From Litchfieldia alkalitelluris (GTDB lineage: Bacteria > Bacillota > Bacilli > Bacillales > Bacillaceae_L): a stretch of 64,000 nucleotides of DNA. The notes under the pieces are model-generated. The model saw only the letters and a list, made by a program, of their open reading frames with translations, was not told where the DNA came from and did not search any database. The translations under genes and the position numbers were made by a program. Below, piece after piece: positions 8,258 through 19,158 of this stretch. Every line of letters starts with the position of its first letter. Positions within the stretch are counted from its first letter, which is position 1. The DNA lies in contig NZ_KV917374.1 in NCBI RefSeq assembly GCF_002019645.1, forward strand, positions 1,996,696 to 2,060,695, written 5' to 3'.

Positions 8258-8514
8258 GTTTCGTACATCCTTCCCTAGTATACTTATTCATTCAATATGG
8301 CTTACTCTTATGAATTTTATTCATTAGCTTCTATTAAATATACAACTAACTCTAGTGATACATAGATAAAGGTGTTAGAACGCGCTCGATGTGAAGTAAG
8401 GTAAAAGTCCTATTTTATATATATAATAGGAGTTCAATTCAATTGGATAACTATCAAAAGTGTTCATTAAGTGGTAATATTATCCTATAAAAAGCTATGA
8501 ATGGAGAGAATTGG

Positions 8515-9411
8515 ATGGTCGTATTTCGGGGTATGGGCAGGGTTGTAAATACTGTCGTTGGTGAGGCCGCAAAAGGCGGAGTAAAGATTGTTAGTAAGGC
8601 TGTTTCATCTAAGAATGAAAAACTTGGTGAATATGTCGATGATTTAGGAAATAGTGTGATTGAAGCATCAAAGGGGGCGGTGGACTCTGTTACTCAATTT
8701 GCAGACGGGACAGTAAGAGGCGTTTACGGTGCTGTAAAAAAAGATGAATACCATAAACAAAGAGGGTGGGCTGATATTACGGACTCTACTGGTCGAACGG
8801 TCAGGGGAATTGGCTCAAGCATTAAGTATACGGTTAAGAGTGCTGGTATCACTGTGAATGGTTTAAAGAATAGGGATAGAGAACAAATTCTCCACGGTGT
8901 GAAGAATTTAGGAAAGGTTGCCGCAGTCACAACTCTAGCGGTTGGAATTATTGATATTGTAGACGGGCCGGATGCTGTAAACGCACAGGAAATTGATACA
9001 AGAAATAGTAGTTTAGCGGGGTTGGAACATGCTGAGACAGGTGTGCTTTTTGAAGCAAAAACAATTGAATGGCCAAGCGGAGAATTTCAAACGGGAACAT
9101 TCCCAGTATTTGATTCACAATTCAGTGTTGTTATAGCAGAAGAAGTATATACTTCAAGTGACCAGGCTCATTTTAATATTGCAAATGACACATTGTATCA
9201 GTCAATTCAAGAGAACCCTGGTCTGGCAAATGATTTAGGACTATCCTCGTACGATGTACAAGTTCTTCAGAATGGAATTACACCCGAAGGATTTGATTGG
9301 CACCATCACGAGCAGCCAGGTGTTTTGCAGTTAGTTGATGAAGAAACTCACCAAGATACAGGACACACTGGTGGTAGAAGTATTTGGGGTGGAGGTAGTG
9401 AGTATCGGTAA
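8515..9411 (+). CDS. WHH-type HNH-fold nuclease (polymorphic-toxin-like)
   Basis: Predicted DNA- or RNA-cleaving protein of 298 residues. The C-terminus (about residues 255-298) reads PEGFDWHHHEQPGVLQLVD followed by His-rich THQDTGHTGGRSIWGGG, the signature of the WHH branch of the HNH/Endo VII nucleases found as toxin tips. The N-terminal 150 residues are Gly/Val/Ser-rich and amphipathic, with VVNTVVGEAAKGG and a hydrophobic stretch VAAVTTLAVGIIDIVDG; no LXG, WXG or signal peptide is evident. The ATG at 8515 is preceded by GGAGAG 7 bases away; the ATG at 8497 has no site. No immunity gene is visible downstream. Function as a toxin is inferred from the family. Confidence 0.75.
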   Translation: MVVFRGMGRVVNTVVGEAAKGGVKIVSKAVSSKNEKLGEYVDDLGNSVIEASKGAVDSVTQFADGTVRGVYGAVKKDEYHKQRGWADITDSTGRTVRGIGSSIKYTVKSAGITVNGLKNRDREQILHGVKNLGKVAAVTTLAVGIIDIVDGPDAVNAQEIDTRNSSLAGLEHAETGVLFEAKTIEWPSGEFQTGTFPVFDSQFSVVIAEEVYTSSDQAHFNIANDTLYQSIQENPGLANDLGLSSYDVQVLQNGITPEGFDWHHHEQPGVLQLVDEETHQDTGHTGGRSIWGGGSEYR

Positions 9412-10278: not shown

Positions 10279-10307
10279 TTGACTAATTATGGAAAATGTT
10301 TTACATT
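10279..10307 (+). promoter_or_regulatory. SigA-type promoter of the ROK-amidohydrolase operon
   Basis: TTGACT (10279-10284), a 17-base spacer and TACATT (10302-10307) make a good vegetative promoter. Transcription would start about 10313, just ahead of the CTAA repeat. Confidence 0.7.
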
Positions 10308-10318
10308 GGTTAGTAAGG

Positions 10319-10346
10319 TTAACTAACTAACTAACTAACTAACTAA
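10319..10346 (+). repeat. CTAA tandem repeat in the operator position
   Basis: Almost seven copies of the tetranucleotide TAAC/CTAA lie from about +6 to +33 relative to the predicted start site. ROK repressors of the XylR type bind inverted sequences beginning TTAGT and ending ACTAA; a TTAGT lies at 10310 just before the tract. The tract could be, or overlap, the operator of the adjacent ROK gene. Confidence 0.5.
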
Positions 10347-10363
10347 AAGGCATGGAGGGCTGC

Positions 10364-11566
10364 ATGAGTATCCCGCAATCAGGAACACCCACTTATTTGA
10401 AGCTATTAAACAAGAAAAAGGTCTTACAAACGATTATCGGGGGTGATGATTATTATTCCAGAGCAAGTCTTGCTAAAGAATTAAATATTAGTAAACCAAC
10501 GATTTCTTCGTTAGTCGATGAGTTGGTTAAAGAAGGGTGGCTCATTGAAAAGGAAAGTAATGAAACGGCCCATGGAGGTGGGAGGAAGCCTGTTCATTTA
10601 TTTTTCAATAAAGTATGTAAATATACAATCGGAGTTGATATCGGCGGCACACATACTGAAATAGCAATAATGAATCTTGAAGGTGAATTAATTATTACCG
10701 GAAAACTATTTACTCAACAGGCATTAAAAGATGATTTTATTCATCTACTAGTAACAGAGATTAATAGATTGTTAAGAGTAAGTGGATTGATCAATACTGA
10801 TATATTATCACTTGCAATTGGTGCGCCTGGGATAACTGATACAGAGAAAGGTATTGTAATTGAAGCTCCAAGTCTTCAGTGGGACAATTATCCTTTACAA
10901 GAAAAAGTAAGCTCTTATTTTCCGTTTCCTGTATATATTGAAAATGATGTGAATATGGCGGTGCTTGGGGAGTATTGGAAGGGGTCTGCGAAAGATAAAT
11001 CCAATGTCGTTCTGATTACGATAGGAACGGGTGTTGGATGTGGCATTATTATTAATCGTGAGCTATACCGAGGCTTTCAATTTGCTGCAGGAGAAATTGG
11101 TTATATGATTACTAACAAAGATCAAGCTGGACAACATTTCGAAACAATGTTTGATGGCTTTGGTTTTCTTGAAAATCATGTTGGGGGTCCTGCTATCGTA
11201 AAGCAATATATAAAGAACTCTACGACAACTGTCAATGGCGAGTATAGTGCGGAAATGGTTTTTAATGAAGCCATTCAAGGTGAGACTTATGCAACAAAGG
11301 TGATTAATGAAGCATTAGATCACATTGCAGTTTCGTTAATTAATGTAGCGGCTCTTTTGAATCCCGATTGTATCGTTTTAGGAGGAGGAATTTCGAAATC
11401 AGGAGAATGGTTTTTACCGAAGTTACAACATAAAATAGCGATGTATCTACCTAAGCAAAGTCAAACAGAGGTGCTTCTAACTCAATTGCCACAAGTGGCC
11501 CTTATCGGAGCAACAGCTTTATGTTTGAGAAATCATGAGTTATTTTCCATCGAAAAGAAATTCTGA
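10364..11566 (+). CDS. ROK-family transcriptional repressor (XylR/NagC type)
   Basis: Sugar-responsive repressor, first gene of the long operon and probably autoregulatory. About 400 residues. An N-terminal winged helix (about 25-65) contains SRASLAKELNISKPTISSLV, followed by GGRKP and the sugar-kinase-like fold with IGVDIGGTHTEIAIM and IGTGVGCGIIINRELYRGF. The usual ROK zinc cluster (CxCGxxGCxE) is absent: the region after GEIGYM has no cysteines. The ATG at 10364 has GGAGGG 5-6 bases ahead; the ATG at 10352 overlaps that site. The downstream importer and amino-sugar-type deaminase suggest that a sugar or its phosphate is the effector. Confidence 0.85.
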   Translation: MSIPQSGTPTYLKLLNKKKVLQTIIGGDDYYSRASLAKELNISKPTISSLVDELVKEGWLIEKESNETAHGGGRKPVHLFFNKVCKYTIGVDIGGTHTEIAIMNLEGELIITGKLFTQQALKDDFIHLLVTEINRLLRVSGLINTDILSLAIGAPGITDTEKGIVIEAPSLQWDNYPLQEKVSSYFPFPVYIENDVNMAVLGEYWKGSAKDKSNVVLITIGTGVGCGIIINRELYRGFQFAAGEIGYMITNKDQAGQHFETMFDGFGFLENHVGGPAIVKQYIKNSTTTVNGEYSAEMVFNEAIQGETYATKVINEALDHIAVSLINVAALLNPDCIVLGGGISKSGEWFLPKLQHKIAMYLPKQSQTEVLLTQLPQVALIGATALCLRNHELFSIEKKF

Positions 11567-11601
11567 TTTTTATAGCAAACTTTTTTAATAGGAGGTAAAT
11601 A

Positions 11602-12549
11602 ATGCTATTTCAAAATGATTTTAAAGTCATTGATATCCATGGCCACTTGCCAGGGAAAAAGGGTAGTGGATTCATTAAGCGAACAGAAATTGGTGATCAA
11701 TATAATACAGAAAGATCAAAGCGAATGATGTTATCTTGGGATTTCCCGCATCCATCTGAGGAAACCGATGAAAAGAAGGCCATACCAATTATGGATCGTT
11801 GGGTACAGGAGCTGGATCGATATGGAATTGAAAGATTCGTGTTTCTTACTGCTGAGGATAATGATGATTTAGCTAAAAAGATAAAGGAGTATCCTGGTCG
11901 TTTTATTGGATTTGCACATCATCCGATTGAAAACCGTGATGCACTTCAGGAATTAAAACGGGCAACAGAGGAACTTGGCTTAAAGGGGTATAAGATGTTT
12001 GGGCCTCTTGTGAATCGAAAGCTTCATGATGACTCATTAATGCCTGTTTGGGAGTATTTGGCTGAAAAGCAAATTCCCGTATTAATTCATTTTGGACTTT
12101 TGGGCAGAGCTGGTGGAATTGTTGAGCATCAAAACATGTCACCACTCTCAATCTTTCAAGTTGCTAGAGAGTTCCCTGAACTTCCTATCATCATTCCACA
12201 TTTTGGAGCAGGTTACTTTCAAGAATTACTTCATCTTTGCTGGAGTTGTCCAAATGTTTATGTGGATACCTCTGGGTCTAATCAATGGATGCGCTGGATG
12301 CCATATCATTTAGATTTGGAGATTTTGTTCAGAAAAACCTATGAGCTCATTGGCGCTGAACGAATTATCTTTGGGACAGATTCAAATGGGTTTCCAAGAG
12401 GCTATTCCTACCGATATTTACAAGACCAGGTTCGAGTTTGCCGGGAAATCAATATGCGTGAGGAGGATATTGAAAAGATCTTTGGTAATAATGCACGCAG
12501 ACTATTTAATCTTGAGATTGGAGTGAAGTCAGAGAATGTCACACAATAG
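11602..12549 (+). CDS. Amidohydrolase-family metal-dependent hydrolase (amidohydrolase_2, COG2159 type)
   Basis: TIM-barrel hydrolase of 315 residues with no signal peptide. Metal-ligand motifs are visible: DIHGHLPG near residue 14, GYKMFGPL with a candidate Lys, VLIHFGLLG, IIPHFGAGYF and the late FGTDSNGFP. This family includes decarboxylases and lactonases as well as amidases, so the reaction is open: hydrolysis of an amide or lactone, or decarboxylation, of the imported compound. AGGAGG precedes the ATG. It overlaps the following lyase gene by 14 bases, implying tight translational coupling and perhaps consecutive reactions. No close characterised homologue comes to mind. Confidence 0.75.
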   Translation: MLFQNDFKVIDIHGHLPGKKGSGFIKRTEIGDQYNTERSKRMMLSWDFPHPSEETDEKKAIPIMDRWVQELDRYGIERFVFLTAEDNDDLAKKIKEYPGRFIGFAHHPIENRDALQELKRATEELGLKGYKMFGPLVNRKLHDDSLMPVWEYLAEKQIPVLIHFGLLGRAGGIVEHQNMSPLSIFQVAREFPELPIIIPHFGAGYFQELLHLCWSCPNVYVDTSGSNQWMRWMPYHLDLEILFRKTYELIGAERIIFGTDSNGFPRGYSYRYLQDQVRVCREINMREEDIEKIFGNNARRLFNLEIGVKSENVTQ

Positions 12550-14014
12550 GTCCAGGATTTATGTGAACCATATACTCGAACCTACCTACGATTTTACGAA
12601 AAGAAAATTTTTGAACTGTATACTTGAAATCAATATAGCTCATGCTGCCATGCTTGCTCGTCAACAGATTTTAAAGAACGAAGATGTGAAAAAAATTATT
12701 GAAGCTAATCAGAGATTGTTAAGAAATGGTTTTGATCAGCAGTATAACCCTGAGTTTGAAGATTTATTTTTCATGATTGAAGATGATCTGAAAAATGAAA
12801 TCGGTGATGAACTTGTTGGAAATATGCATATTGCTTTTAGCAGAAATGATATGGACGCAACGATGTTTCGGATGATTTGGCGTGAAAAAGTGGTTCAATG
12901 GCTTAAACTGATTATAGATATGAAGGAAGTCTTGCTTGAATTAGCAAAGGAGCATGAACTCACTGTAATGCCTGCATATACGCATAATCAGCAAGCTCAG
13001 CCGACAACACTTGCTCATTATTTATTAGCCGTTGATAAGCATTTGGAAAGAGATCTCGACCGTGGCTTTTCCTTATTAAATCGAATAAATGAATCGCCTA
13101 TGGGTGCGGCAGCTCTAGGAACAACAGGATTTCCTATTGATCGGACATTTATGGCACAACAATTAGCCTTTACAAAACCGCTAGATAATTCATATGATTC
13201 CATCAGTGCAGCTGATTATATGCTTGAAATCGTTGGAACATTATCAACCTCACTTAGTACTCTATCACGCTTTGTCTATGATTTAATGTTTTTTGCAACC
13301 AATGAGGTCGAAGCAATTAGATTGGATGAAAGCTTAGTACAAACTTCTAGTATAATGCCGCAAAAAAGGAACCCTTCATCATTAGAACATACACGATCAC
13401 TAATAAGTCGAACAATTGGAGAATTACAATCAGCGTTTATGATGACTCATAGCGTACCTTTTGGAGATATTGTTGACATCGGTGATGATATTCAACCGAT
13501 TCTTGATCATGGATTTCTACATACCTATCAAATACTCGAACTATTAACCGAAATCTTAAAAAATATTACTGTGAACAAAGATAAGCTATATAACCGATGT
13601 AGAGAGGGATTCTCAACGGTTACAGAGCTAGCTGATGTCCTGGTAAGGGATTACCAGCTATCTTTCCGACAAGCACACCATATCGTTCAAGCATTTGTTA
13701 AACACTTAAATACAAATGGATACAACTTAAGCCATGGAAATGCTGAACTTGTGAAAGAGATTGCTAAGAAAGAATGTCATATCGATTTATCTCTATCTGA
13801 TGAGCATTACAAGGATGCGATAGATCCTTATCAATTTGTGATGGTTCGGTCTATTTTAGGAGGGCCAAATCCAAAGGAAACAGAAAAACAGCGAACCCTT
13901 TCAGCAAATCAATTAAAAGGATACCTCACTGAGATTCAGGAATGGGAATATAAATTTAATTCCTATAAGGGATTATTACTTAATGGTAGTTATGAAATAT
14001 TAACTAATAAATAA
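12536..14014 (+). CDS. Argininosuccinate lyase-like enzyme of the fumarase/aspartase superfamily
   Basis: 492-residue cytoplasmic lyase. Superfamily features are present: the catalytic loop SSIMPQKRNPSSLEH (about residues 276-290), the His motif YTHNQQAQPTTLAHYLLA, and MGAAALGTTGFPIDR. It is related to ArgH but sits in a carbohydrate operon without other arginine genes, and it is longer than usual ArgH (about 460). Members eliminate fumarate from C-N adducts (argininosuccinate, EDDS), so one can infer that an aspartyl or succinyl-amine conjugate is split here. Its start lies inside the amidohydrolase gene. The true substrate is unknown. Confidence 0.75.
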   Translation: MSHNRSRIYVNHILEPTYDFTKRKFLNCILEINIAHAAMLARQQILKNEDVKKIIEANQRLLRNGFDQQYNPEFEDLFFMIEDDLKNEIGDELVGNMHIAFSRNDMDATMFRMIWREKVVQWLKLIIDMKEVLLELAKEHELTVMPAYTHNQQAQPTTLAHYLLAVDKHLERDLDRGFSLLNRINESPMGAAALGTTGFPIDRTFMAQQLAFTKPLDNSYDSISAADYMLEIVGTLSTSLSTLSRFVYDLMFFATNEVEAIRLDESLVQTSSIMPQKRNPSSLEHTRSLISRTIGELQSAFMMTHSVPFGDIVDIGDDIQPILDHGFLHTYQILELLTEILKNITVNKDKLYNRCREGFSTVTELADVLVRDYQLSFRQAHHIVQAFVKHLNTNGYNLSHGNAELVKEIAKKECHIDLSLSDEHYKDAIDPYQFVMVRSILGGPNPKETEKQRTLSANQLKGYLTEIQEWEYKFNSYKGLLLNGSYEILTNK

Positions 14015-14038
14015 AGTAGATTAAGAGGAGGGTTAATT

Positions 14039-15343
14039 TTGAAAAAATTTCTTGGAGTACTCTTTTTTGTCACATTGTTTATGGTGCTAGTCGGATGTTC
14101 CGATAAGGAAGAGGCTGGTGGTGATGTAACTGATGATGGAGAAGAAGGTAGTGGAGAGATTACGATTGAATACTGGCAATATGCTTATCAGTCCAAGGTG
14201 GATTTAATTGATGAACTAATTAAAGAGTTTGAGGAAGCAAACCCTGGAATCAAAGTAAAGCATACAACGTTCCCATATGAACAATATAACGAAAAGGTAG
14301 CTACACTTGTTCCAGCGGGTAGAGGACCGGATGTTATTAATCTTTATTATGGTTGGATTCCGAAATATGTTGACTCTGGATATCTTCAACCCCTTCCAGA
14401 GGATGGCTTTTCTGCAAGTGAAATTGAAAGTGAATTTTTCCCACTTGTTGATGCTGTAAAACTTGATGATCAATATTGGGCGATTCCAACCGCAGTTCGT
14501 ACCCTCGCTTTATTTTACAATAAAGATCTTTTTGAAAAAGCTGGTTTAGATCCAGACAGCCCACCTACAAACTGGGATGAGTTGGTTGATTATGCGAAGA
14601 AAACTACGGTTCGTGATGGTAACCAGTTAGTTACAGCAGGGATGGCTTATGAACTTGGAGGTCAGTTGCATAACTGGTATAGAGATGCTCTTGTTTATCA
14701 AGCAGGTGGTCAAGATTTAAGTGAGGATCGAAAACAAATTTTATGGGATGATTCGGAAGCTGGTTTAGAAGCGTTCCGTTATTTAGTTGAATTTACGACA
14801 GAGCATAAAGTTGGTGAAAAAGGATTCTATACGGATGATGTTACGGCATTTAAAACTGGAAATGCAGCAATGAATGTTGATGGTTCTTTCCGTTTAGGAA
14901 CGCTTGCTACAGATGCACCAGATTTGAATTATGCGGTAGCTCCACTGCCATCATATAAGGAAAAAGCAACACAATCTTCCTTCTGGGCGAATGGAATTAC
15001 AGCTAAGGTTGAAGGTGAAAAGTTAGAAGCAGCAACAAAGTTCCTAAAGTTCTTAACAAGCAAAGAAGTGATGGAGCGTTGGGTTGATAAGATTGGTGAA
15101 TTACCAGCTAAGGAAGCTGTGGCTTCTCAAGACAAATTTATTACTGACCCACTGTTAGGGCCTTTTATTGAACAGCTTCCATATGCAAATGCTCACTTCT
15201 TCGTAGATGAAACGGCTGAAAGACAGCTTATGATGGATGCAGTTGATCAGGTTGTACTAAATGGAGTTTCAATTGAGGACGCATATGCTGAGTTGGTGGA
15301 AAAAACACAGAAGTTATTTGATGATTACTGGAGTAGTCGATAA
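14039..15343 (+). CDS. Sugar ABC transporter substrate-binding lipoprotein (family 1)
   Basis: Captures the imported solute outside the membrane. The 434-residue precursor has a lipoprotein signal ending LVGC, with the lipidated Cys at position 20, an acidic spacer, then ITIEYWQYAYQSKVDLIDEL and RGPDVINLYYGW, typical of the UgpB/MalE-type group. AGGAGGG precedes a TTG start at 14039. It is followed by a hairpin that would let more of this protein be made than of the permeases. The family binds oligosaccharides, glycerol-phosphate esters and related polyols; specificity cannot be read from sequence. Confidence 0.88.
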   Translation: MKKFLGVLFFVTLFMVLVGCSDKEEAGGDVTDDGEEGSGEITIEYWQYAYQSKVDLIDELIKEFEEANPGIKVKHTTFPYEQYNEKVATLVPAGRGPDVINLYYGWIPKYVDSGYLQPLPEDGFSASEIESEFFPLVDAVKLDDQYWAIPTAVRTLALFYNKDLFEKAGLDPDSPPTNWDELVDYAKKTTVRDGNQLVTAGMAYELGGQLHNWYRDALVYQAGGQDLSEDRKQILWDDSEAGLEAFRYLVEFTTEHKVGEKGFYTDDVTAFKTGNAAMNVDGSFRLGTLATDAPDLNYAVAPLPSYKEKATQSSFWANGITAKVEGEKLEAATKFLKFLTSKEVMERWVDKIGELPAKEAVASQDKFITDPLLGPFIEQLPYANAHFFVDETAERQLMMDAVDQVVLNGVSIEDAYAELVEKTQKLFDDYWSSR

Positions 15344-15360
15344 TTTAATCCTATTCACTA

Positions 15361-15396
15361 GGGAGAGGCTAGGACCTGAGTCTCTCCCATCTTTTT
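15361..15396 (+). terminator. Intra-operon attenuator after the binding-protein gene
   Basis: GGGAGAGGCT pairs with AGTCTCTCCC (one G-U pair) and is followed by ATCTTTTT. A partial terminator or mRNA-stabilising hairpin is usual after binding-protein genes. Confidence 0.75.
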
Positions 15397-15414
15397 AAAG
15401 GGAGGATATACATA

Positions 15415-16350
15415 ATGGAGAGTACCAAAGCCGAAATTTCGCCACCTATAAAACTCAAGCCCAAAAAACGATCAAGGTTCACTTTAAAGCAGCAAAAATA
15501 CATCTTTGTTTATACTTGTCTACTAATCCCCCTACTCTTTTTTATTGTTATCCGTTTTCTTCCAACACTGTATACCTTTAATATAGGTTTTCATGAGTGG
15601 GATATTCTTTCAAATGATAAGCCATTTGTTGGGATGGACAATTACGTGAATCTTTTTCATGATGAGGTCTTTCGAAAATCCCTTTACAATACGATGATAT
15701 ATGTTGTATTAGGAGTCATTGGTCAATTGATTTGTGGACTAGGCATTGCTCTATTATTACAGCGAATTAATAAGTTTGTAGGGTTTTTTCGTGCGATTTA
15801 CTTCATTCCTTATGTAACGAGTATTGTTGCGGTAAGCTGGGTGTTTAAGTGGATTCTTATGAATAATGGAATCGTCAATGATATTTTATTAAAACTAGGA
15901 TTTGAAGCACAGCTCTTCTTAAAATCTCCTGATCAAGCAATCTATATTATTATCTTAACAATGATTTGGCAAGGACTAGGTTTTCAAATGATTATTTTCT
16001 TAGCAGGGTTAGAAAATATCCCGAAAATGTTTTATGAGGCAGCTGAAATTGATGGGGCTAATGGATGGAAGAAGTTTATCCATATTACGATCCCATTGTT
16101 GAATCCTACGATTGTGTTCTCTGCTGTTATTGGGAGTATTAGTTTCCTCCAAACATTTACTCAAGTTCAGAATATGACACTTGGTGGACCATTGAATTCC
16201 ACCAAATCAGTCGTTCTTTATATTTATGAATTGGCATTCCAACATTTTGAAATGGGTGCTGCTTCAGCGGCAACAGTTATCTTATTCTTAATTATTCTAA
16301 TCATTACGATTTTCCAAATGAAATTCCTAACAAAGAAATTTGAATACTAA
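15415..16350 (+). CDS. Sugar ABC transporter permease, MalF/UgpA type
   Basis: Integral membrane subunit, 311 residues, with about six membrane spans; the first is YIFVYTCLLIPLLFFIVIRF. The cytoplasmic coupling loop EAAEIDGANGWKKFIHITIPLL (about residues 213-234), which contacts the ATPase, is intact. AGGGAGG lies ahead of the ATG. It pairs with the next gene to form the channel. The immediately preceding hairpin probably lowers its expression relative to the binding protein. Confidence 0.9.
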   Translation: MESTKAEISPPIKLKPKKRSRFTLKQQKYIFVYTCLLIPLLFFIVIRFLPTLYTFNIGFHEWDILSNDKPFVGMDNYVNLFHDEVFRKSLYNTMIYVVLGVIGQLICGLGIALLLQRINKFVGFFRAIYFIPYVTSIVAVSWVFKWILMNNGIVNDILLKLGFEAQLFLKSPDQAIYIIILTMIWQGLGFQMIIFLAGLENIPKMFYEAAEIDGANGWKKFIHITIPLLNPTIVFSAVIGSISFLQTFTQVQNMTLGGPLNSTKSVVLYIYELAFQHFEMGAASAATVILFLIILIITIFQMKFLTKKFEY

Positions 16351-16367
16351 GTCTTGGGGGTGAAGTG

Positions 16368-17186
16368 GTGAAAAGAAGAAACTTTACAAAAAAAGCCATT
16401 GTTTATACATTATTAATTTTAGGTTCAGTAATCATGCTATTTCCATTCATTTGGATGGTTTCCACCTCATTCAAACCTCCGAGTGAAGTGTATGGGTTGA
16501 AGCTTATTGCTGATAACCCTACATTTAATAACTATCGTAAAATTATCGAAGGGACCCTTTTTACTAAATGGTTTTTAAATAGTTTTATTGTTGCTGTGAT
16601 TACGACAGTCAGTGTGGCTCTCTTTGATACCCTTGTTGGTTATATTATTGCTAAGTTCAACTTTTTTGGGAAACAAGTTATCTTTCTTTTTATCTTAAGC
16701 TCTCTAATGATTCCAACAGAAATGTTAATTATCCCTTGGTACTTAATGTCAGCTGACTTAGGGTGGGTTGATACATATTGGGGAGTCATGTTTCCAGGGG
16801 TGATTTCAGCGTTTGGTATATTCCTAATGAAGCAATTTATGGAGTCCATTCCGGATGATTTATTAGATGCTGCAAGAATTGATGGTATGAATGAGTTTTC
16901 GATTTTCTTTAAGGTCGCCATTCCTCAAGTATTCCCAGCATTATCTGCACTATGTATTTTCACATTCCTTGGGAATTGGAATGCGTATTTATGGCCGCTC
17001 ATTGTTATTGAAACAGCTGAAATGCGAACATTACCGGTTGGTCTTGCCTTTTTCTCAGGTGAAAATCAAACGTATTGGGAGCTTGTTATGGCAGGAGCAA
17101 CCATTGCTGTTATACCCTTAATCATTGTCTTTTTAATCTTCCAGCGCCATATTATAAAAGGAATCACTTTGACTGGCTTAAAATAA
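16368..17186 (+). CDS. Sugar ABC transporter permease, MalG/UgpE type
   Basis: Second channel subunit, about 272 residues, six predicted spans. It starts KRRNFTKKAIVYTLLILGSVIMLF and contains the coupling loop DAARIDGMNEFSIFFKVAIP. Two tandem GTG codons (16365, 16368) are possible starts; 16368 is at the better distance from GGGGGTG. The C-terminus HIIKGITLTGLK matches MalG-type permeases. It lies 17 bases after the first permease gene. Confidence 0.9.
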   Translation: MKRRNFTKKAIVYTLLILGSVIMLFPFIWMVSTSFKPPSEVYGLKLIADNPTFNNYRKIIEGTLFTKWFLNSFIVAVITTVSVALFDTLVGYIIAKFNFFGKQVIFLFILSSLMIPTEMLIIPWYLMSADLGWVDTYWGVMFPGVISAFGIFLMKQFMESIPDDLLDAARIDGMNEFSIFFKVAIPQVFPALSALCIFTFLGNWNAYLWPLIVIETAEMRTLPVGLAFFSGENQTYWELVMAGATIAVIPLIIVFLIFQRHIIKGITLTGLK

Positions 17187-17225
17187 GGTTGATCTTGAGT
17201 GAATTTTTTCAAAAGAGGTTAAAAC

Positions 17226-17981
17226 ATGAAAATTATAGAGGTCAAAGATTATCAGCAAATGAGTCGGCTCGCAGCGTGTATTATAAGTGAAAAAGTTCGT
17301 TCACAAAATCGATTAAATCTTGGGCTCGCAACCGGAGAAACACCAAAAGGGACCTACAACTATTTAATAAAGGATTTTAATCATAATGGAACCTCTTATG
17401 AAGAGGTATACACGTTTAATTTAGATGAATATGTTCCACTTTCTATGGATAACCCGAATAGCTATCGATTTTATATGAACCATTTTTTATTTAACCATCT
17501 TGATATTCCAATGTCTCATACTTTTCTTCCACTAGGTAATGCTACTGATCTAGAAAACGAATGTGTAAGATATGAAAAACAAATTGAAGATCATGGTGGA
17601 ATTGATCTTCAACTACTTGGAATCGGCAAGAATGGCCATATTGGCTTTAATGAACCAAGAACATCTTTCATATCAAAGACACATGTCGTCACACTTACTT
17701 CATTAACTAGGGAAGCAAATGCACGATTTTTTGAACGTCCAGAAGATGTTCCGAAACAAGCAATTACAGTTGGAATTGAAACAATTATGAAGTCAAAAGA
17801 AATTCTCCTGCTTGCATCTGGTGAAAGTAAAAGAGAGGCTATGAACGAACTGCTTCATGGAGAATTGTCGGAGGATTTTCCAGCATCGATACTTCGACTT
17901 CATCCAGATGTAACAGTCATCGCTGATCAAACAGCATTAAAGGGGATTCAAGTAGAAGGTTATTCCTTCACAAAATGTTGA
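17226..17981 (+). CDS. nagB: Glucosamine-6-phosphate deaminase-like protein
   Basis: NagB converts glucosamine 6-phosphate to fructose 6-phosphate and ammonia. The 251-residue protein shows LGLATGETPKGTYNYL, FNLDEYVPLSMDNPNSYRFYM and LLGIGKNGHIGFNEP, with the catalytic Asp, His and Glu region intact. AGAGG precedes the ATG at 17226. No nagA, kinase or PTS gene is in this operon, so either an amino-sugar phosphate is produced by other enzymes or this copy works on a different aminated sugar phosphate. The context makes an amino sugar moiety in the transported compound likely. Confidence 0.82.
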   Translation: MKIIEVKDYQQMSRLAACIISEKVRSQNRLNLGLATGETPKGTYNYLIKDFNHNGTSYEEVYTFNLDEYVPLSMDNPNSYRFYMNHFLFNHLDIPMSHTFLPLGNATDLENECVRYEKQIEDHGGIDLQLLGIGKNGHIGFNEPRTSFISKTHVVTLTSLTREANARFFERPEDVPKQAITVGIETIMKSKEILLLASGESKREAMNELLHGELSEDFPASILRLHPDVTVIADQTALKGIQVEGYSFTKC

Positions 17982-18010
17982 AGGGATTTTGAATTTGAGG
18001 AGGCGGTGGA

Positions 18011-19141
18011 ATGGCTGAATTGCACTTAAATCATATCTATAAGGTATATGATAAAAACGTAACGGCAGTAAAAGATTTTAACCTACATATCAAGGATCAT
18101 GAATTTATTGTATTTGTTGGCCCTTCAGGATGCGGGAAATCGACTACATTAAGAATGATTGCAGGACTTGAAGAAATATCTAAGGGCGAGTTCTACATTG
18201 ATGATGAGCTCGTCAATGATGTTGCACCAAAGGATCGAGACATTGCGATGGTTTTTCAGAACTATGCCCTATATCCTCATATGAATGTGTTTAATAATAT
18301 GGCATTTGGGTTGAAGCTTCGAAAAGCCCCAAAGGAGGAAATTAAGCGCCGTGTTGAGGCAGCAGCGAAGATTCTTGGGCTTGAACCATACCTGGATCGT
18401 AAGCCGAAAGCTTTATCAGGCGGTCAACGTCAGCGTGTAGCATTAGGTCGGGCGATCGTCCGTGATGCGAAGGTTTTCTTAATGGATGAGCCACTCTCTA
18501 ATCTTGACGCAAAGCTCCGGATTCAAATGCGTGCTGAAATTTCAAAACTTCACCAAAGACTCCAAACAACTACTATTTATGTTACCCACGATCAAACGGA
18601 AGCGATGACTATGGCCACCCGTATTGTTGTGATGAAGGATGGAATCATCCAACAGGTTGGGACTCCTAAGGATGTGTATGATAACCCGGATAATACCTTT
18701 GTGGCAGGTTTTATAGGCTCACCGGCAATGAACTTTTTCAAAGGGAAGATTCAAAACGATACGTTTATTGTGAATGAAATAAAGATGAAAATTCCAGAAG
18801 CCAAGCTTAAAGTTTTACATCAACATGGATATATCACAAAAGAGATTATTTTAGGAATTCGCCCAGAAGACATTCATGAAACTAGTGAAAAATATGATAC
18901 AGCTGTTAAAGTCACAGCTAAAATCGAGGTTGCTGAACTCATGGGAGCAGAAACCATGTTGTATTCAACCATTGGAGTCGAAAGCTATGTTTCAAGGGTT
19001 GATTCAAATGTAGAAGTGAAGCCAGGACAATTATTTTCACTTTACTTTGATATGAATAAGTGTCATTTCTTTGATGTCGATAGTGAAGAACGAATTGATT
19101 TAAGGGGTGGAGCAAAGAAGGAATTTAGGGAATCAGTGTGA
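18011..19141 (+). CDS. msmX: MsmX/UgpC-type sugar ABC transporter ATPase
   Basis: Energises carbohydrate importers. 376 residues: Walker [10 protein letters not shown] at about 39-47, Q-loop FQNYALYPH, signature [14 protein letters not shown], Walker [14 protein letters not shown], switch His in THDQTEAM, then a C-terminal regulatory OB/TOBE domain from about 235. GAGGAGG precedes the ATG. It is the last gene of the operon. In Bacillus one MsmX ATPase serves several importers that lack their own, so it may also power the LplB/YtcP-type importer at 56-58 kb; that is an inference. Confidence 0.9.
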
Positions 19142-19158
19142 TGCTGGTTCTTTTTTTT
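19130..19158 (+). terminator. Terminator of the ROK operon
   Basis: GAATCAG pairs with CTGGTTC (one G-U) across a 7-base loop that includes the stop codon of the ATPase gene, then eight T. The same stem sequence with a different loop recurs at 24586. Nothing convincing is seen between here and 19420; a 66-codon reverse frame there has no ribosome site. Confidence 0.85.

Follow-up and report, generated by a model that had tools for sequence, protein, structure and literature searches.

Bacillithiol metabolism and the locus under study

Many Gram-positive bacteria rely on the thiol bacillithiol instead of glutathione. It is built and recycled by the enzymes BshA, BshB1 or BshB2, BshC and Bca, and in the product of BshA, N-acetyl-alpha-D-glucosaminyl L-malate in the NCBIfam product name, glucosamine is combined with an N-acyl group and a precursor of fumarate in one molecule. 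Here, we analyzed a stretch of 64,000 nucleotides from Litchfieldia alkalitelluris (NCBI RefSeq assembly GCF_002019645.1, contig NZ_KV917374.1, positions 1,996,696 to 2,060,695 of the forward strand; the window, to which all coordinates refer unless another locus is named). It contains an operon of eight genes, all on the plus strand, which encode a repressor of the ROK family, an amidohydrolase (AMH) of the Amidohydrolase_2 type, an ArgH-like lyase, a solute-binding protein (SBP), two permeases, the deaminase NagB and an ATPase. Open reading frame (ORF) positions and profile matches bear out both the number and the order of the genes given in an earlier note on this DNA. We propose, with a probability of roughly two in three, that this operon serves to import and break down bacillithiol (Cys-GlcN-malate) and/or its N-acyl-glucosaminyl-L-malate core. 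Both systems would thus handle the same molecule, but whereas the Bsh enzymes and Bca build or recycle it, the importer, the lyase and NagB of the window would break its core down. Links to the known system are provided by relatives of the AMH that reside in bsh operons and by PIG-L proteins similar to BshB or Mca that are encoded near many relatives of the lyase. Loci and genomes are labelled Lnnn and Gnnn, respectively.

Among the open-access PubMed Central papers listed, titles and abstract openings yielded nothing on bacillithiol catabolism, and no account of what happens to bacillithiol after its synthesis or release was found in this literature, including passages of PMC5270733. According to a review, the glucosamine-malate core is only 'presumably' recycled (PMC4101496). 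No open-access paper was found that combines the gene names of the operon, and none that combines bacillithiol, degradation, malate, glucosamine and fumarate. Co-mentions of bacillithiol and argininosuccinate lyase were incidental, as judged from titles and abstract openings, and the word amidohydrolase is absent from the part of the open-access bshA/B/C literature examined.

In the proposed route, the SBP and the two permeases, powered by the MalK-type ATPase, would import the compound. The AMH would hydrolyze the amide on the glucosamine nitrogen, freeing cysteine or acetate and leaving glucosaminyl-malate. On the L-malyl half of this intermediate, the lyase would perform the anti-elimination of its superfamily, with the anomeric oxygen of the sugar being expelled, such that fumarate and glucosamine would be formed. 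Glucosamine would then be phosphorylated, with the ROK protein itself or a kinase from another locus as the possible enzyme, after which NagB would convert glucosamine-6-phosphate to fructose-6-phosphate and ammonia. Fumarate would enter the tricarboxylic acid cycle, cysteine would serve as a sulfur supply, and the ROK protein would repress the operon. What we observed directly is the gene content and its conservation, the residues kept and lost, the linkage of AMH relatives to BshC and BshA, and the exchange of AMH with PIG-L proteins. The outline given in the earlier note, a sugar importer combined with a hydrolase, a fumarate-type lyase and a glucosamine-6-phosphate deaminase, was right in kind.

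The lyase has kept the catalytic residues but not the putative arginine site of ArgH

The lyase gene (12536-14014, plus strand) encodes a fumarase-superfamily protein (PF00206/PF14698) that shares superfamily, domain order and the catalytic Ser, His, Lys and Asn residues with ArgH. Against the ArgH model TIGR00838 it scores 347.9 bits and thus lies above the cut-off of 279.5; the ArgH encoded next to argG in the same genome reaches 676.9 bits. By bits, the top NCBIfam match of the lyase is NF005218 (PRK06705, 'argininosuccinate lyase') with 372.9, far under the cut-off of 883.

For alignment and tree calculation we used 99 family members and one ArgH, the argG-linked copy of the window genome, with near-duplicates such as L014/L088 included. 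The seven positions that we take to be the catalytic residues of the superfamily elimination (Ser283, Lys289, Asn291, Thr161, His162, Arg115 and Asn116 in crystallin numbering) are identical in 99 of 99 lyases. The three residues that presumably hold the arginine half of the substrate (Tyr323, Gln328 and Lys331 in the same numbering) are altered in every one of the 99, Tyr323 to Asp, Gln328 to Glu, Gly or Ala, and Lys331 to Met, Leu, Ile or Thr. An open-access literature search for these residue numbers yielded no paper. The solved canonical lyases 2e9f, 9ggi and 1tj7 carry the motif LAYN(K/R)D-QEDK at the arginine positions, while structure 6g3d, whose entry name is argininosuccinate lyase and which we take to be EDDS lyase, also deviates there. 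The protein does not resemble a functional argininosuccinate lyase, its arginine pocket being apparently lost. Because the catalytic residues are kept and the arginine positions are changed, it should still release fumarate, albeit from a substrate other than argininosuccinate.

The earlier note would have counted its reading as refuted if the lyase had normal activity and no other argH were present in the genome. An argG-argH pair is, however, encoded at another locus (L016), so that the operon lyase is not the only argH homolog. An ordinary argininosuccinate lyase that was duplicated into a sugar operon and has retained its usual activity would account for the TIGR00838 score. With the putative arginine-site residues Y323, Q328 and K331 replaced in 99 of 99 members, argG-argH located elsewhere, and an importer, a ROK protein and an amidase, none of them related to arginine, as neighbors, we rejected a plain ArgH duplicate and regard it as very improbable.

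Relatives of the amidohydrolase are encoded in bacillithiol operons

The AMH gene (11602-12549, plus strand; PF04909, 1.1e-39) shares exactly 14 bases (12536-12549) with the lyase gene, precisely as stated in the earlier note. Unlike BshB, the protein does not belong to the PIG-L/LmbE family. Residues H13, H15, H163, H200 and D260, which we take to be the Amidohydrolase_2 metal ligands (H13 and H15 forming HxH), are invariant in 11 of 11 aligned AMHs.

AMH relatives are encoded directly after BshC in genomes G416 and G464, and in G464 BshA comes next. They are 46% identical to the window AMH and have many invariant motifs in common with it. The identity of the neighbors is clear, with 524 and 530 bits for BshC (cut-off 265.8) and 506 bits for BshA (cut-off 273.7). 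A recognizable BshB is absent from both genomes, each of which encodes one PIG-L protein; these score no higher than 48.5 bits, with the BshB cut-offs at 182.5 and 195.25. BshB1 exceeds its cut-off in none of the four genomes of the family that contains G416 and G464; in two of these four AMH occurs together with BshC, and in the other two neither is present (one carrier being 79% and one non-carrier 86% complete). Since the relatives reside in bsh operons of genomes without recognizable BshB and share motifs with the window protein, the AMH family very likely acts on N-acyl-glucosaminyl-malate, and the AMH of the bsh operons is a candidate for the missing GlcNAc-malate deacetylase (BshB) of such producers. 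The two operons lie at 9788-12398 of L068 and 8061-12402 of L071, and in both a DinB-family gene precedes BshC.

The genome of L. alkalitelluris encodes BshA, BshB1, BshB2 and BshC, all above their cut-offs, and should be able to make bacillithiol. As it already has BshB1 and BshB2, its AMH would serve breakdown rather than synthesis. BshC was not found in the genomes of L075 and L079, which would therefore use bacillithiol made by others.

A phylum-wide search retrieved AMH in 23 of 398 genomes. The neighborhoods of 20 were mapped, the other three being already known; the AMH ORF was not called in L208, L215 and L226, and in high-GC loci some of the called ORFs are false. With E ≤ 1e-70, AMH occurs in only one of 15 genomes of the class of G777, for which reason the G777 copy may have been horizontally acquired. 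In a plasmid collection 255 records matched AMH, all with less than 60% identity and with 24-32% among the matches listed, and provided nothing informative. At 9569-10546 of L064 the AMH gene is broken by an in-frame TAG; the AMH of L063, from the same genus, is intact, and a lyase is near neither.

Gene neighborhoods of the lyase relatives

When a genome-contig collection was scanned with a profile of the lyase alignment, 80 of 463 relatives were retained, and all 80 loci were mapped, although in three no lyase ORF exceeded the threshold. An ABC importer is present in 50 of the 80, a ROK protein in 39, and a BadF-type kinase and a large PIG-L protein in 34 each (the latter in two pieces in L093). 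Less frequent are a creatininase (10), a short BshB-like PIG-L protein (10), AMH (9) and NagB (1). For PIG-L genes in general, 52 matches, one of them below cut-off, in about 76 Mb from 17 genomes correspond to about one in 80 windows expected by chance. PIG-L (LmbE-like) enzymes work on N-acyl-glucosamine cores (PMC4101496).

Over all mapped loci, the 43 large PIG-L proteins comprise 829-1015 amino acids, all contain AHPDDE, and most, though not all, have a signal-like N-terminus. For the two that were scanned (L055 and L061), the best NCBIfam match, below cut-off, is Mca, the mycothiol-conjugate amidase, and Pfam reveals an added NEW3-type domain in both; where these loci have a protein of this kind, the window operon has AMH instead. 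AMH and large PIG-L never occur in the same locus, which has a chance of 0.005 if the loci were independent, which they are not. In the lyase tree there are at least five switches between AMH (17 leaves) and large PIG-L (43 leaves), as is typical of two unrelated enzymes that perform one task. The short PIG-L genes follow that of the BadF kinase (L080, L084, L089, L090, L097, L098, L100, L101, L136 and L148); the L080 protein is below the BshB2 cut-off (112 versus 195).

In L212, whose genome represents another class, the genes for NagB, AMH, ROK, lyase, ATPase, SBP and the two permeases form one cluster with a different order. Because the set recurs in relatives, and once with all eight genes in another class, it is not a chance assembly. 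The earlier note named a gene order not conserved in relatives as a ground for refutation; this check did not refute its reading, the set being recovered in relatives, albeit without a strict order. In L069, lyase, AMH and importer are joined by a BadF kinase and a protein that passes the BshB2 cut-off. In the three Ruminiclostridium-type loci L074-L076, the three of the 80 with this arrangement, the gene after AMH encodes an SDH_alpha protein (PF03313 by Pfam in two of the three, L074 and L075), and the cluster also comprises the lyase and a ROK kinase without helix-turn-helix domain; in L209 AMH is likewise located beside an SDH_alpha protein. If SDH_alpha is, as presumed, cysteine-desulfidase-like, the L074-L076 clusters would cover each of the building blocks of bacillithiol, with one enzyme each for cysteine, glucosamine and malate.

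ArgH and related lyases cleave C-N bonds. This habit, together with the presence of NagB and the importer, speaks for degradation of an amino sugar with an N-linked aspartyl or succinyl group, from which the lyase would produce fumarate and the amino sugar by C-N cleavage while AMH would remove another acyl group. Such a substrate, suggested in the earlier note, leaves unexplained both the AMH relatives in BshC/BshA operons and the exchange with Mca-like PIG-L proteins; it is probably wrong, as the neighborhoods point to malate O-linked to N-acylated glucosamine, and we consider this alternative unlikely.

In L096, L133 and L134 (Acidobacteria or Edaphobacter), the lyase occurs with a ROK protein and in L133 and L134 also with a large PIG-L protein; proteins of about 1000 amino acids that we take to be TonB-receptor-like, and a presumably symporter-like protein in L133, replace the ABC importer. 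The lyase gene of L072 adjoins a DinB-family gene.

Importer, deaminase and the kinase step

The sugar importer is complete and of the MalK/UgpC-energized type. It consists of an extracellular solute-binding lipoprotein (14039-15343; PF01547, 2.4e-44), permease 1 of the MalF/UgpA type (15415-16350; PF00528, 3.9e-15), permease 2 of the MalG/UgpE type (16365-17186; PF00528, 3.7e-22) and an ATPase of the UgpC/MalK/MsmX type with an OB/TOBE domain (18011-19141; NF008653, 501.8 bits, cut-off 432). NagB (17226-17981) passes the equivalog cut-off of TIGR00502 for glucosamine-6-phosphate deaminase (299.1 versus 236.9), and so do the NagB proteins of L058, L079 and L212. The window genome encodes one more NagB-like protein (L017, 7390-8163), which belongs to another gene cluster and is below the cut-off (130 versus 237). 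Operons for N-acetylglucosamine (GlcNAc) or chitobiose with a ROK protein, a sugar ABC importer and NagB resemble the window operon in these three components, but the latter contains an Amidohydrolase_2 protein and a lyase. A simple GlcNAc/chitobiose operon was rejected because no NagA-like gene is present in the operon, to which the search for NagA was confined, and because the lyase would be left unexplained.

The sugar-related genes also bear on a repair function. S-(2-succino) lyase (2SL), which belongs to the lyase class I family by its domain, replaces YxeK in 2-succino-cysteine breakdown (PMC9706529) and offers a precedent for a lyase that strips succinate adducts from bacillithiol or cysteine conjugates in an operon salvaging damaged thiols. 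The BshC neighbors of AMH relatives supply a link to thiols. The 2SL pathway likewise relies on a catabolic lyase, and the two enzymes fall into one broad class, but the substrate of 2SL is a thiol instead of a sugar and its gene neighbors differ as described in PMC9706529. Thiol repair needs neither a sugar importer nor NagB nor sugar kinases, and this explanation appears quite improbable.

For breakdown of bacillithiol or its core, glucosamine would have to be phosphorylated. The missing kinase noted earlier is indeed missing as a separate gene in the window operon, but candidates exist in the BadF or ROK kinases of relatives and in the kinase motif of the ROK repressor. BadF proteins of L012, L069 and L219, outside the 80 loci, match NagK below cut-off. 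The repressor (10352-11566; PF00480, 4.4e-53; winged helix-turn-helix, PF13412) retains two motifs of ROK kinases, END and the phosphate-binding DIGGT, and the ROK zinc motif CxCGxxGC was not seen in it by eye. A DxGGT-like motif is kept in 21 of 25 ROK proteins at loci without a separate kinase versus 10 of 31 at loci with one (Fisher test, 1.3e-4, uncorrected for relatedness). The tally was made by protein, BadF or ROK counted as kinase, and the pattern also admitted DIGAT/DIGAS in three Ruminiclostridium-type loci. The ROK repressor may thus double as a glucosamine kinase.

Points that weigh against the proposed pathway

Several findings weigh against breakdown of bacillithiol or its core. 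TIGR00838 classifies the lyase as ArgH, and we know of no precedent for a lyase of the fumarase superfamily that cleaves a glycosidic C-O bond. None of the partner genes sought was present in 19 of the 80 lyase loci, and 10 have an importer but no nearby amidase. The lyases nearest to that of the window among the 80 (73-74%; L072 and L073) are without partner genes. The mutual exclusion of AMH and large PIG-L partly tracks importer type and kinship and applies to loci only, since G105 encodes a large PIG-L protein away from its AMH operon. The gene before BshB2 in L069 resembles that before BshB2 in the window genome, and for this reason the L069 BshB2 may be just a biosynthetic copy. The presence of BshB1 and BshB2 rules out that the window AMH itself is a missing BshB, and NCBIfam gave no name to either of the two SDH_alpha proteins scanned. 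Finally, all substrates and reactions, the kinase and the ligand of the regulator are deduced from sequence.

AMH relatives also cluster with a GH125-like protein of about 625 amino acids in six of the 20 mapped phylum loci (L213, L214, L220, L221, L222 and L227), some of them with importer genes; a seventh case, L211, is more distant. The GH125 identity was confirmed by Pfam in L214 and L227 and rests on similarity to these two in the other loci. In view of these neighbors, other sugars may be substrates of the AMH family, a further point against our proposal, and the GH125-like protein could provide an alternative hydrolytic cut of the same alpha-glycoside or belong to a separate pathway. 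The same neighbors, and named PDB matches of AMH that are mostly decarboxylases (LigW2, resorcylate, ACMSD), would suit a pathway for a sugar acid or a glycoside that has no relation to bacillithiol, with AMH as a decarboxylase or lactonase, the lyase acting on a different dicarboxylate, and the bsh linkage of distant AMHs reflecting a later change of function. Many residues are, however, invariant between catabolic and bsh-operon AMHs, and the swap with PIG-L points to amide hydrolysis; we therefore give this alternative little credence.

Operon layout and expression signals

Upstream of the ROK gene, a promoter-like site on the plus strand (10279-10307, TTGACT-17-TACATT) has 9 of 12 consensus matches and is weak and not above shuffles; in the scan such sites were rarer than in shuffled sequence (35 versus a mean of 53.1). 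The single promoter claimed in the earlier note is thus unsupported. The leader contains an inverted repeat (TTGGTTAGTAAG / CTAACTAACTAA; 10306-10346, plus strand) that is merged with a tandem array and is a possible candidate for the ROK operator. The array, a perfect TAAC repeat of 6.8 copies (10320-10346), lies between the promoter-like site and the ROK start, and changes in its copy number could shift expression. For the ROK protein itself, translation probably starts at the ATG at 10364, behind GGAGG, in preference to 10352.

A single terminator was not borne out either. A terminator-like hairpin overlaps the ATPase stop codon and is followed by a T run (19127-19153, plus strand; 12 pairs, only three of them G-C), and an internal hairpin between the SBP and permease 1 genes (15361-15388, plus strand; 10 pairs) is richer in G-C pairs, with six. 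The latter may perhaps give surplus SBP message. Terminator-like sites in the region are barely above expectation (nine versus a shuffle mean of 7.6, sd 2.9). Just upstream of the operon, the product of 8497-9411 contains a nuclease domain of the colicin-DNase/WHH type (PF12639, PF14414) and resembles a polymorphic toxin.

Implications

Taken further, the evidence raises the prospect, for which we see the odds as even, that bacteria, some of them without BshC, feed on bacillithiol by means of a new enzyme type, a fumarase-superfamily 'glycoside lyase' that cleaves the malyl alpha-glucosaminide through elimination instead of hydrolysis, and a third, non-homologous class of N-acyl-glucosaminyl-malate amidase (Amidohydrolase_2) that doubles as BshB in some producers. 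If it works as proposed, the operon would establish a route by which bacillithiol is used as a source of carbon, nitrogen and sulfur, and it would account for many of the ArgH-like lyases that are located in sugar operons. The fumarase superfamily would be extended by a reaction in which a glycosidic C-O bond is broken by elimination, and bacillithiol producers apparently without BshB would gain a candidate for this enzyme.

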